This document shows positions 61,833 through 64,000 of a stretch of DNA of 64,000 bases, piece by piece. The DNA is from Pseudoalteromonas haloplanktis ATCC 14393 (GTDB lineage: Bacteria > Pseudomonadota > Gammaproteobacteria > Enterobacterales > Alteromonadaceae). A program made the translations under genes and the position numbers. A model generated the notes under the pieces. It was not told the DNA's origin, did not search any database, and saw nothing but the letters and a program-made list of their open reading frames with translations. The DNA is taken from positions 62,001-126,000 of the forward strand of contig NZ_AHCA01000002.1 in the NCBI RefSeq assembly GCF_000238355.1, in the 5' to 3' direction. Position 1 is the first letter of the stretch. Every line of letters starts with the position of its first letter.

Positions 61833-61850
61833 TGATACAAATAACGCCAC

Positions 61851-62366
61851 TTAATCGTGGCGTTCAGCTTCTTTTTTATTACTTCTGTAATACCGTTTTG
61901 AGTAAATTTTCACATGGCGATGTACACCTTTGCTCAAACTTTTGAATTTCGCTTCAAGCACATCAACACCATATAAAATACCCACCACGAGAATAGACAA
62001 TTTAATCGCTGCCAGTAAATTATTCGTTGCAATCACAACTCCTATGGATGCCAATACCCAAATCGTTGCGGCCGATGTCACCCCCACCACAGCGCCATCT
62101 TTCGCAAGCATGACTCCAGCGCCTAAAAAGCCAATCCCAGTGATGATTTGACCAACCACCCGCGAATGGTCAATTACATCACCATGGAGCATAAACGCGG
62201 TGGCTAAAAACAAATACGTACCCAATATGATCAACACAGAGGTGCGGATCCCAACGGGTTTGCCTCGTAATTGCCGCTCCATGCCTATTAAGGCGCCACA
62301 AAAAGCCGCGCTACCAATTGCTGACCACGAATAAGGGGTAATATCTACTAATTCAAAAAAACTCAC
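61851..62366 (-). CDS. MgtC/SapB family membrane protein
   Basis: This 171-residue protein has the MgtC N-terminal domain with ALIGMERQLRGKPVGIRTSVLIILG, GQIITGIGFLGAGVML and GVTSAATIWVLASIGV, plus a basic C-terminal tail (SLSKGVHRHVKIYSKRYYRSNKK). It is less similar to the MgtC-family protein at 51 kb than to other bacterial MgtC proteins I recall, so the two are likely separate lineages. It lies 14 bp after the GNAT-C39 gene on the same strand and could be its operon partner. Confidence 0.88.
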   Translation of the reverse strand: MSFFELVDITPYSWSAIGSAAFCGALIGMERQLRGKPVGIRTSVLIILGTYLFLATAFMLHGDVIDHSRVVGQIITGIGFLGAGVMLAKDGAVVGVTSAATIWVLASIGVVIATNNLLAAIKLSILVVGILYGVDVLEAKFKSLSKGVHRHVKIYSKRYYRSNKKEAERHD

Positions 62367-62380
62367 TCAACATCCTAAAA

Positions 62381-63487
62381 TTACTTTATTTTTATAGCCA
62401 GTGCGGTACTCAAACGAGAGCTGCCAAAACTCGCCATTTTTACAAAATCACTTTTTGCAATGGGTACATGCTGGCAATCAATCGCTAGTTGTTTATCGTT
62501 TTCACAAAACGGATCATGCACATACAAGCAATGTTCATCTAGATGAGTCACACACACCCAATGAGGCGATTTTTTACCATCAAAGCGATATGTACTGATC
62601 AACAACACCACAGCCATTTTTTCAGCCAGCCAGCGCTCGATATGTTCCAGTGATAATTCCTGATATTTAACATCGAGTTTATGATTAATGGCTTCAACTA
62701 CAAATTGATTATGCACAGTATGCAAAATCGCTTTTTTGTTGTCGTTTCTCACGCCACCTACAAATAAAGTATCACGGGTATTAATAACCACTTCAGCCTT
62801 AAAGCCACGTTTATTTGCCGCTAGTGCAAGCCCTAATGGATGACAACCACCATGTCCTGAAGTCATGAAAATAGTCGTTGCTTCACGCCATATCGCAAGT
62901 TCACTGACCTGGGTGATCACTGCTTTTTTTAGTGATGACATGGCCATCAATAACGCAGCAGGGCCACATGTAAACTCCGTGGTTTGCTGATACCAAGGAG
63001 TTTCTCGTGTAAACTCAAGTTCATTGGTGTTACGAATGTTTTTTTGCATTCGTAGCGCATCGCTATGGTCGTCGTAATAATCACTGTATTGCCCGAATAC
63101 CCGATACCCCAGTTTCTTATACAAGGCAATGGCGGCTAAATTATTTACCGCCACTTCAAGGCGCATAAACACCCTACCGCGCTCTGCAGTAGCACGTTCA
63201 AGTGAACTTAGTAACTGCTGTGCAAGACCTTTCCCCTGCGCCTGCGGTGCTACTGCAAGTGAGTATAAACGAGCTAAACGAGTGCCTTTGTGACACCATA
63301 CTAAACCATAGCCAAGCAATTGATTGTTTGATTCGACAACCTGCAAAATTCCATGCTTAGCCGTTATCCAACGTTTCAAACTGCGGGCACTTAACCGATC
63401 TTGACTAAAGCTTTGTTGCTCTATTGCAAGTAATGCCTTTAAATCAGCGTCTGTGGCAACTCGCACTGCCACATCATGAACAGACAT
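62381..63487 (-). CDS. GNAT acetyltransferase-peptidase C39-like fusion
   Basis: This 368-residue protein joins a RimI-like GNAT domain (about 5-150; acetyl-CoA loop in LAVAPQAQGKGLAQQLL, and ALYKKLGYRV) to a papain-like C39-type domain (about 160-365) with a likely catalytic triad C174 (EFTCGPAALLMAM), H309 (KKSPHWVCVTH) and D325 (YVHDPF). Its start overlaps the stop of a RimK-like ATP-grasp ligase (TAATG), so the two are translationally coupled. Together they suggest formation, acetylation and cleavage of an amide- or peptide-linked product; the substrate is unknown. Confidence 0.88.
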   Translation of the reverse strand: MSVHDVAVRVATDADLKALLAIEQQSFSQDRLSARSLKRWITAKHGILQVVESNNQLLGYGLVWCHKGTRLARLYSLAVAPQAQGKGLAQQLLSSLERATAERGRVFMRLEVAVNNLAAIALYKKLGYRVFGQYSDYYDDHSDALRMQKNIRNTNELEFTRETPWYQQTTEFTCGPAALLMAMSSLKKAVITQVSELAIWREATTIFMTSGHGGCHPLGLALAANKRGFKAEVVINTRDTLFVGGVRNDNKKAILHTVHNQFVVEAINHKLDVKYQELSLEHIERWLAEKMAVVLLISTYRFDGKKSPHWVCVTHLDEHCLYVHDPFCENDKQLAIDCQHVPIAKSDFVKMASFGSSRLSTALAIKIK

Positions 63488-64000
63488 TAACCTCGACCTC
63501 GAGCTTCAAGACGTTGCTTAAATTCATCCATAATAAGCATGTATAATTCATCACCTAAGTAGGCATCTTCTACTTTATGATCAATACTTGGGTTGTCGTT
63601 CACTTCTAGCACATAAGCACGGCCTTGATGCTCTTTAACATCAACACCATATAAACCTTTCCCCACTGTTTTGCAGGCTTTTAAAGCAGCATCAAGCACC
63701 GCTTTAGGTAGCTCAAAAGTAGGTAATGTTTCAAAGCCACCTGAGAAGAAGCGTTTTGCGTCGTGGTTATAGATTTGCCAATGGTTACGTGCCATTAAAT
63801 AACGACATGCATAAATAGCACGGCCATTTAACACCCCTACTCGCCAATCATACTCGGTATACATGTATTCTTGCGCTAATACTAAGGCGCTAAATTCAAA
63901 CAGCTCATTTAATTTTGCAACCAACTCAGTGCGATCAGCTACTTTATACACCCCTTTAGAGAACGAGCCTTCAGGCATCTTCAGTACTAATGGGTAAGTA
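63487..64000 (-). CDS. RimK-like ATP-grasp amide ligase (partial, N-terminus beyond right edge)
   Basis: The frame runs open to the right edge, with PLVLKMPEGSFSKGVYKV at the edge supplying the ATP-binding lysine, then QEYMYTEYDWRVGVLNGRAIYACRYLMARNHWQIYNH and the metal-binding GLYGVDVKEHQGRAYVLEVNDNPSIDHK typical of ATP-grasp ligases of the RimK type. About 170 C-terminal residues are present. Such enzymes form amide bonds to amino acids. The stop codon overlaps the GNAT-C39 start, indicating an operon in the order ligase, GNAT-C39, perhaps MgtC-family gene. Confidence 0.88.
   Translation of the reverse strand, partial: TYPLVLKMPEGSFSKGVYKVADRTELVAKLNELFEFSALVLAQEYMYTEYDWRVGVLNGRAIYACRYLMARNHWQIYNHDAKRFFSGGFETLPTFELPKAVLDAALKACKTVGKGLYGVDVKEHQGRAYVLEVNDNPSIDHKVEDAYLGDELYMLIMDEFKQRLEARGRG

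Follow-up and report, generated by a model that had tools for sequence, protein, structure and literature searches.

In the N-acetylglutaminylglutamine amide (NAGGN) system, a GNAT acetyltransferase and an ATP-grasp enzyme make an N-acetylated dipeptide, and a hydrolase is found nearby. The NAGGN synthetase is one chain. The module described here, in which an RLAN/RimK-like ATP-grasp ligase is coupled to a fusion of a RimI-like GNAT with a C39-type (DUF3335) peptidase, follows a similar plan. When compared with the model of NAGGN synthetase (TIGR03103), the GNAT scored 32.2 bits with the cut-off at 569, and the ligase gave no match at an E value of 0.001.

The ligase of this locus resembles RimK, the S6 glutamate ligase, and LysX/ArgX in the fold and the catalytic core of its ATP-grasp part (Z 27-28). 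It differs from them in an extra N-terminal part of about 200 residues that contains RLAN, and it stays below the curated cut-offs of RimK: the score was 27.1 of 331 against the RimK S6--L-glutamate ligase model NF007764 and 78.4 of 143.4 against the RimK family TIGR00768. The GNAT domain resembles RimI, the S18 N-acetyltransferase, in fold and in the LEV, N, LY and YY positions. In the alignment these positions coincide with those of the RimI of the same genome, and we take them to be the catalytic and substrate-binding positions of RimI. In contrast to RimI, the GNAT here is fused to C39 and is without the insert that the genome's own RimI has after YY. Against the RimI equivalog TIGR01575 (cut-off 86.4) it scored 85.2, or 87.5 in the genome search. 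Since the same genome carries separate and better-scoring copies of RimI (116.7 bits) and RimK (231.9 bits), the fusion and ligase genes are paralogues of these.

Fusions of GNAT with DUF3335 (PF11814) are already in print, with a guess of peptide ligation or acetylation that cites Iyer et al. 2009 (PMC10318531). That is, the same fusion and the same general guess had been published, in agreement with the earlier note on this DNA, which had mentioned computational predictions of peptide-modification roles for RimK-like/GNAT/peptidase neighbourhoods. Neither the RLAN ligase partner nor the GNAT pairs without C39 nor the copies linked to importers are mentioned in the passages of PMC10318531 on the fusion. 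Our literature searches on DUF3335, RLAN, RimK/C39/GNAT and the GCS2/FGase operon found one paper naming DUF3335 (PMC10318531) and no assigned function or product. The window's pair is thus a member of a known, functionally unassigned family, and several of the observations given here may be new. The work of Iyer et al. reportedly covers RimK-like neighbourhoods as well.

Gene arrangement and catalytic residues

The features of the locus are listed in Table 1, where the window means the whole stretch of 64,000 nucleotides that was analysed. Extending it to the right, as the earlier note had proposed, recovered the full ligase of 464 residues, including the RLAN domain that had been out of that reader's view. 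The earlier note had also described the ligase, the acetyltransferase and the peptidase as one coupled unit with two of the three fused, and this description is borne out by the Pfam domains, by the 1-base overlap of the two genes and by their co-occurrence across genomes. In the fusion, DUF3335 scored 286.3 bits (cut-off 25) and Acetyltransf_1 57.4 bits (cut-off 20.7). The ligase fragment inside the window, which includes the E-x-N-D-N-P motif, matched RimK with 25 bits (cut-off 21), and the full ligase matched RLAN (PF14401) with 101.1 bits (cut-off 25), RimK with 30.4 bits (cut-off 21) and also Dala_Dala_lig_C. The gene preceding the ligase, 251 bp away from it, encodes a GreA/GreB-C-terminal-like protein.

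Table 1. Positions of the features in the window and, where marked L002, in the extended locus.
Feature	Position	Strand	Remarks
GNAT-C39 (DUF3335) fusion ORF, 368 aa	62381-63487	-	ORF list; start overlaps ligase stop by 1 base (TAATG)
RimI-like GNAT (N-alpha-acetyltransferase type) domain of fusion, about residues 1-152	63032..63487	-	
C39/DUF3335 papain-like peptidase domain, residues 163-366 of fusion	62390..63001	-	
RLAN/RimK-like ATP-grasp ligase, C-terminal part	63487..64000	-	frame open at the window's right edge
Full ligase gene, GTG start	L002:5487-6881		start beyond the window
MgtC-family ORF	61851-62366	-	starts 14 bp past fusion stop
Terminator-like stem after MgtC	61843..61864 (L002:3843-3864)	.	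consensus scan
Terminator-like hairpin before ligase	L002:6925-6987	-	just right of the window

The ORF downstream of the fusion matched MgtC with 98.5 bits (cut-off 31.4). The earlier note had suggested that this gene, 14 bp downstream, may share the transcript. The gene stands beside the pair in 12 of the 18 readable loci of the genus (a count that leaves out L009, whose stretch ends short of the ligase) and is absent from the architectures listed for other genera. We therefore rejected MgtC as a core partner, and it is an unproven candidate member of the system. The consensus scan found 7 terminator-like stems where 3.9 were expected; the stem after MgtC is possibly the end of the transcript.

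C174, H309 and D325, which the earlier note had pointed out in the papain-like peptidase, were found at these positions of the fusion, and the same domain contains Gln168 and a WREATT...GHGGC stretch. We aligned 103 fusions, picked by a GNAT anchor in tblastn, a C39 match and a length of more than 300 aa, with some genomes represented twice. Gln168, Cys174 and His309 were present in 103 of 103, and Asp325 in 102, with Glu in the remaining one. Thus the catalytic residues, whose mutation across homologues had been named beforehand as a reason to doubt the reading, are kept. Glu196, Trp200, Arg201, Thr204, Met208, Gly211, Gly213 and Gly214 were likewise found in all 103 fusions, and Cys215 in 99 of them. 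Judging from the alignment, this second conserved block (Glu196 to Cys215) is a mark of this C39 group. In the GNAT domain of the same fusions, Glu111, Asn116, Tyr138 and Asp140 were invariant (each 103/103), Tyr stood at position 123 in 89 sequences with Phe in the other 14, and the acetyl-CoA loop kept its Gly87 in 93. The ligase residues Glu455, Asn457, Asp458, Asn459 and Pro460, which form the E-x-N-D-N-P motif, were invariant among 17 ligases.

The structure model of the fusion had a mean pLDDT of 90.3. All of the 50 PDB matches listed for it were acetyltransferases, led by RimI (5isv), CBU0801, RimI (2cnm) and Ard1; 2cnm, among the first matches of the fusion's GNAT, is RimI with a bisubstrate inhibitor. 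The ligase was modelled from its Marinobacter homologue L149 (mean pLDDT 81.7). From about residue 204 on, RimK, LysX and ArgX were the best among the 50 matches listed, and the first nine of them covered 262-275 residues of the ATP-grasp part with Z values of 27.0-28.4 and an rmsd of 2.2-2.7.

Distribution of the pair and its partners

We take the window's genus to be Pseudoalteromonas or a close neighbour of it, its class to be Gammaproteobacteria and its phylum Pseudomonadota. Strong DUF3335 matches were found in 57 of 369 genomes of the window's class (weak matches in G063, G075, G108, G175 and G351 are left out of this number), RLAN was found in 81, and both were found in 56. The Fisher p value of this co-occurrence was about 3e-45, a value that ignores the kinship of the genomes. 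In 53 of the 57 genomes DUF3335 lay within 5 kb of RLAN on the same contig, in three the two were on different contigs, and one was without RLAN. The fusion came first in 42 of these 53 pairs and the ligase in 3, while 7 pairs were divergent and 1 was convergent. The earlier note had said that a rare fusion, not co-occurring with the ligase in other genomes, would speak against its reading; what we found is that 56 of the 57 class genomes with the fusion's DUF3335 carry RLAN. The fusion occurs in about 15 percent of the sampled class genomes and our literature searches gave no product for it, which amounts to a sizeable gap in bacterial metabolism.

The other samples, which overlap in part with that of the class and with the relatives, gave the following numbers. 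Among 299 genomes of the phylum, DUF3335 was present in 47 (50 copies), RLAN in 56 and both in 46, and 44 of the 50 copies were at most 5 kb from RLAN. In the order of G603, DUF3335 was found in 26 of 249 genomes, and a comparison by eye placed all of these among the 51 with RLAN. On plasmids, the ligase adjoined the fusion, by coordinates, in 8 of 13 matching records (7 Azospirillum, 1 Tistrella). In the window's genus, 23 genomes out of 36 (35 relatives plus that of the window) had a DUF3335 match, one of these matches being partial, so the pair is not universal even within the genus. The set of related loci consisted of the best 80 of 583 relatives. GNAT was in the same frame in 109 of the 111 DUF3335-like frames of the fetched loci; these 111 frames, and the 145 loci considered below, have limits like those of the 103 fusions, some genomes being represented twice. 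Genome G472 (L228, L229) has two copies of the RLAN ligase, one divergent from a GNAT-C39 fusion and the other beside a lone GNAT.

GNAT was also found near the ligase with no C39 beside it, in 42 of 145 loci having GNAT near the ligase. Among the loci of this kind that were listed, many were of Lysobacterales (Dyella, Rhodanobacter, Lysobacter), 3 were of Pseudomonas (L096, L110, L111) and 4 were viral contigs, and the Aeromonas record L195 is one further case. The C39-less GNATs beside RLAN/RimK-like ligases scored 80-220 bits with the profile of the fusion GNAT, compared to 59 for the genome's own RimI; two weak frames of the same list, L073 and L082, were not counted as partners. On these profile scores, the fusion-type GNAT is a specific partner of the ligase. 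A RimK family protein beside a GNAT is also listed for fosmids of Pseudomonas sp. ANT_H4 (PMC9756463).

The viral contigs L176:7612-8879, L177:7496-8900, L178:7493-8858 and L180:6619-7877 each have an overlapping pair of a GNAT and a RimK-like gene, in which the RimK-like match does not cover RLAN; L176 also has a phage integrase gene. Another viral contig, L174:7977-8909, has a RimK-like ATP-grasp gene, 46 percent identical to the core of the RLAN ligase, just upstream of an SU10-type portal gene, and L173:6085-7017 shows the same ORF layout.

We then considered the 25 class genomes that have RLAN without strong DUF3335. Eight had the ligase with GNAT alone and 13 had C39, ligase, GCS2 and FGase, a second operon type; the others had C39 and ligase (2), ligase and GCS2 (1), or none of these partners (1). 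An hhalign comparison of the two alignments relates the separate C39 in the second operon type to DUF3335 (E 1.5e-8, probability 95.5). In Pfam this separate C39 matched Peptidase_C39_2 and, weakly, Guanylate_cyc_2, and GCS2 and FGase genes adjoin it. The annotation of a Legionella adelaidensis plasmid gives the order ligase, GCS2-type ligase, FGase. DUF2817 occurred in 16 ligase loci, some of which are fusion operons; DUF2817, FGase and AstE/AspA are members of a single metallohydrolase clan.

Possible function of the module

We read six DUF3335 copies in which no intact GNAT was detected, and no RLAN ligase was present in the 12.6-19.9 kb read around each. Four of the six are preceded by importers, three of the oligopeptide type and one of the siderophore type. 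L193, L237 and L238 came from the plasmid searches; of the six copies of the phylum sample that had no RLAN inside 5 kb, those of G603 (two), G677 and G432 were read and those of G599 and G431 were left out, and the gene list of the G432 stretch contained no C39 frame. In L193 (Sinorhizobium meliloti AK83 plasmid), DUF3335 comes directly after an oligopeptide importer. In L237:2614-14537 (Microvirga sp. VF16 plasmid), it follows genes for SBP_bac_5, two ABC ATPases and two permeases and is itself followed by the C-P lyase genes PhnI and PhnJ and by ABC ATPase and amidohydrolase genes, with two ORFs between that were not scanned; judged by gene content, the locus looks like one for the uptake and opening of a phosphonate-bearing peptide. 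One copy of L225 lies after the genes of an oligopeptide importer and a gene for an AstE/AspA deacylase, and the other copy adjoins an SBP_bac_8 gene. In L238:3011-9705 (Streptomyces plasmid), the DUF3335 gene comes after AraC, ABC ATPase, Peripla_BP_2 and FecCD genes and overlaps the end of this FecCD siderophore-type importer operon; its GNAT-less state was assigned from Pfam alone. No transporter was found among the five neighbours scanned for the copy of L226.

The first approximately 145 residues of both L225 copies are a decayed GNAT, which scored 13-14 bits against 182-226 and has lost the acetyl-CoA loop and the LEV/YY positions. The GNAT part of L226 is weaker still (4 bits). The L225 and L226 copies keep FTCG, WREAT or WRQAT, GGC, HW and DP, and the importer-linked copies are 23-41 percent identical to two fusions.

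For the module itself, the gene order and overlap, the conservation of catalytic residues, the co-occurrence, the GNAT and ATP-grasp folds and the importer context of GNAT-less DUF3335 are directly established. With slightly less than even confidence, we think that the ligase and the fusion act as one module, by which a small, peptide-like and N-acetylated metabolite is made and turned over. The RLAN/ATP-grasp enzyme would use ATP to form an amide bond between an amino acid and a carboxylate, the RimI-like GNAT domain would place an acetyl group on the free amino group, either of the product or of a precursor, and the C39 domain of the same chain would cleave an amide bond of the compound, for recycling or for setting its level. 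We infer that the three activities share one compound, and likewise the order of the steps and the small size. A small peptide-like substrate is preferred because four of the six copies follow importers and none of the six has an RLAN ligase nearby, and because the GNAT of both L225 copies has decayed while their C39 residues are kept. DUF2817 in some of the fusion operons, and FGase in operons of the second type, are further points in favour. There are also points against this reading. The importer-linked copies are few (four, three of them from plasmid searches) and diverged, so their substrates may differ. Since ligase-GNAT pairs without C39 exist (42 of the 145 loci), turnover by C39 is not essential, and the ligase of L192, a P. 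aeruginosa plasmid record of which 13.5 kb were read without finding a GNAT or C39, counts against a module.

More broadly, we hold it as a doubtful but reasonable possibility that DUF3335 is a cytoplasmic amidase family for small acylated peptides with two uses. In one use it would be fused to a RimI-like acetyltransferase and paired with an RLAN ligase, in a cycle of synthesis and turnover of an N-acetylated peptide across gamma- and alphaproteobacteria. In the other, with GNAT lost or decayed, it would act behind oligopeptide or siderophore importers and open imported peptides, including phosphonate-bearing ones.

The earlier note had spoken of a toolkit for making, capping and trimming a small peptide or a protein tail modification. 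The coupled and conserved domains of this toolkit stand, but the protein tail looks less likely than the small metabolite because four of the six GNAT-less DUF3335 copies follow importers. If a protein end were the substrate, the ligase would extend the C-terminus of a protein as RimK does with S6, the GNAT would acetylate an N-terminus, and C39 would trim. The closest characterised relatives of the ligase (RimK, acting on S6, and LysX/ArgX, acting on the carrier LysW) and of the GNAT (RimI and NatA) modify the ends of polypeptides, and this speaks for a substrate that is a protein or a peptide; the closeness of the ligase fold to RimK, LysX and ArgX, and that of the GNAT to RimI and Ard1 with the positions shared with the genome's RimI, point the same way. 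However, the genome has a separate and better RimI and RimK, the architectures listed with 20 reference proteins contain no shared partner protein, and no conserved small gene lies upstream in the genus. We therefore consider a protein-end modification unlikely. Maturation of a ribosomal peptide similar to a graspetide, in which the ligase would crosslink a precursor encoded elsewhere, with cleavage by C39 and acetylation, is in our view very improbable. ATP-grasp enzymes, C39 leader peptidases and GNATs do all occur in ribosomal peptide pathways, but here too the genus has no conserved small ORF upstream, as far as the upstream region of the ligase was searched. Graspetides are treated in PMC8939145.

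The C39 domain might instead be an acyl- or peptidyl-transferase, like BtrH or phytochelatin synthase; the ligase would then make an acyl group and the C39 domain would hand it to a second amine. When the C39 profile was compared with sequences of solved structures, the best matches were indeed BtrH_N-domain proteins, and a section of PMC10318531 describes BtrH_N as closely related to C39 and also includes phytochelatin synthase. This match was marginal, however (E 0.0091 over 44 residues), and the position of copies beside a deacylase gene or ahead of C-P lyase genes points to breakdown, so we regard a transferase as quite improbable. The remaining explanation, that the ligase makes one core compound in all lineages while the caps differ (acetyl from GNAT, or a gamma-glutamyl-type cap from GCS2 together with FGase), can be compatible with a small metabolite, and we rate it as somewhat unlikely. 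The 13 genomes of the second operon type and the 8 with ligase and GNAT, among the 25 described above, fit such a common core. Yet the identity to a first-type reference is 42-44 percent for four second-type ligases and 44 percent for the window's own ligase, so identity is uninformative on whether a core is shared.

Upstream region of the ligase gene

The earlier note had proposed to look for a short peptide gene upstream. Between the ligase and the preceding gene there is one ORF, of 41 aa. Among seven close members of the genus, three (L002, L239, L242) have a start codon in this frame and four have none. A conserved leader peptide or a linked RiPP precursor was therefore rejected.

Seven sequences of the genus, a small set of related sequences, share a terminator-like hairpin of 21 pairs whose tail is rich in U, some tens of bases ahead of the start of the ligase. 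In these sequences, 95.9 percent of the cells were paired and 6 cells were unpaired. Four pairs were changed on both sides, which 3 of 500 shuffles reached, and the covariation score was 0.213, whereas shuffles gave 0.106 and sliding the pattern gave 0.077 at most. The hairpin of the window's organism has -29.6 kcal/mol (z -6.77), and a search of the genome found its pattern once. By eye, it is absent in L243 and L244, relatives with diverged ligases. A known Rfam family was rejected for this leader: three matches had E values of 0.18-1, all far under the gathering scores. The hairpin is possibly an attenuator of the ligase. The leader of L242 has an extra inverted repeat around ACCAATACGC.

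In most Pseudomonas sequences, a direct repeat GTAAA-N6-GTAA that resembles a CpxR box was found upstream of the ligase, the start positions for these regions being nearest-start guesses. Any GTAAA-N4-7-GTAA was present in 23 of 26 Pseudomonas regions, 1 of 104 others and 0 of 6 of the window's own genus, which was mostly not covered. The shuffle expectation for the Pseudomonas repeat was 0.135, and this evidence is overstated since the 26 sequences are close relatives. As the repeat is nearly confined to Pseudomonas, it says nothing on the window's organism.

The box GTAAAGCTTGCGTAA precedes the ligase of L192. We take this ligase to be PA1345, from its pagP neighbourhood and from the identical 15-base box. 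PA1345 with GTAAAGCTTGCGTAA at -69 is given in PMC12802237 as a CpxR motif by motif alone and not confirmed by DAP-Seq. The gene appears once in the main text of that paper, so it is not in its expression table (PMC12802237). The Cpx-like repeat and the importer-linked relatives are leads to the compound, which is perhaps tied to envelope stress in Pseudomonas. The plasmid record L192 (L192:5908-7497) has ggt, a glutamate/aspartate importer, pagP and the RLAN ligase in one stretch, with the Cpx-like box.
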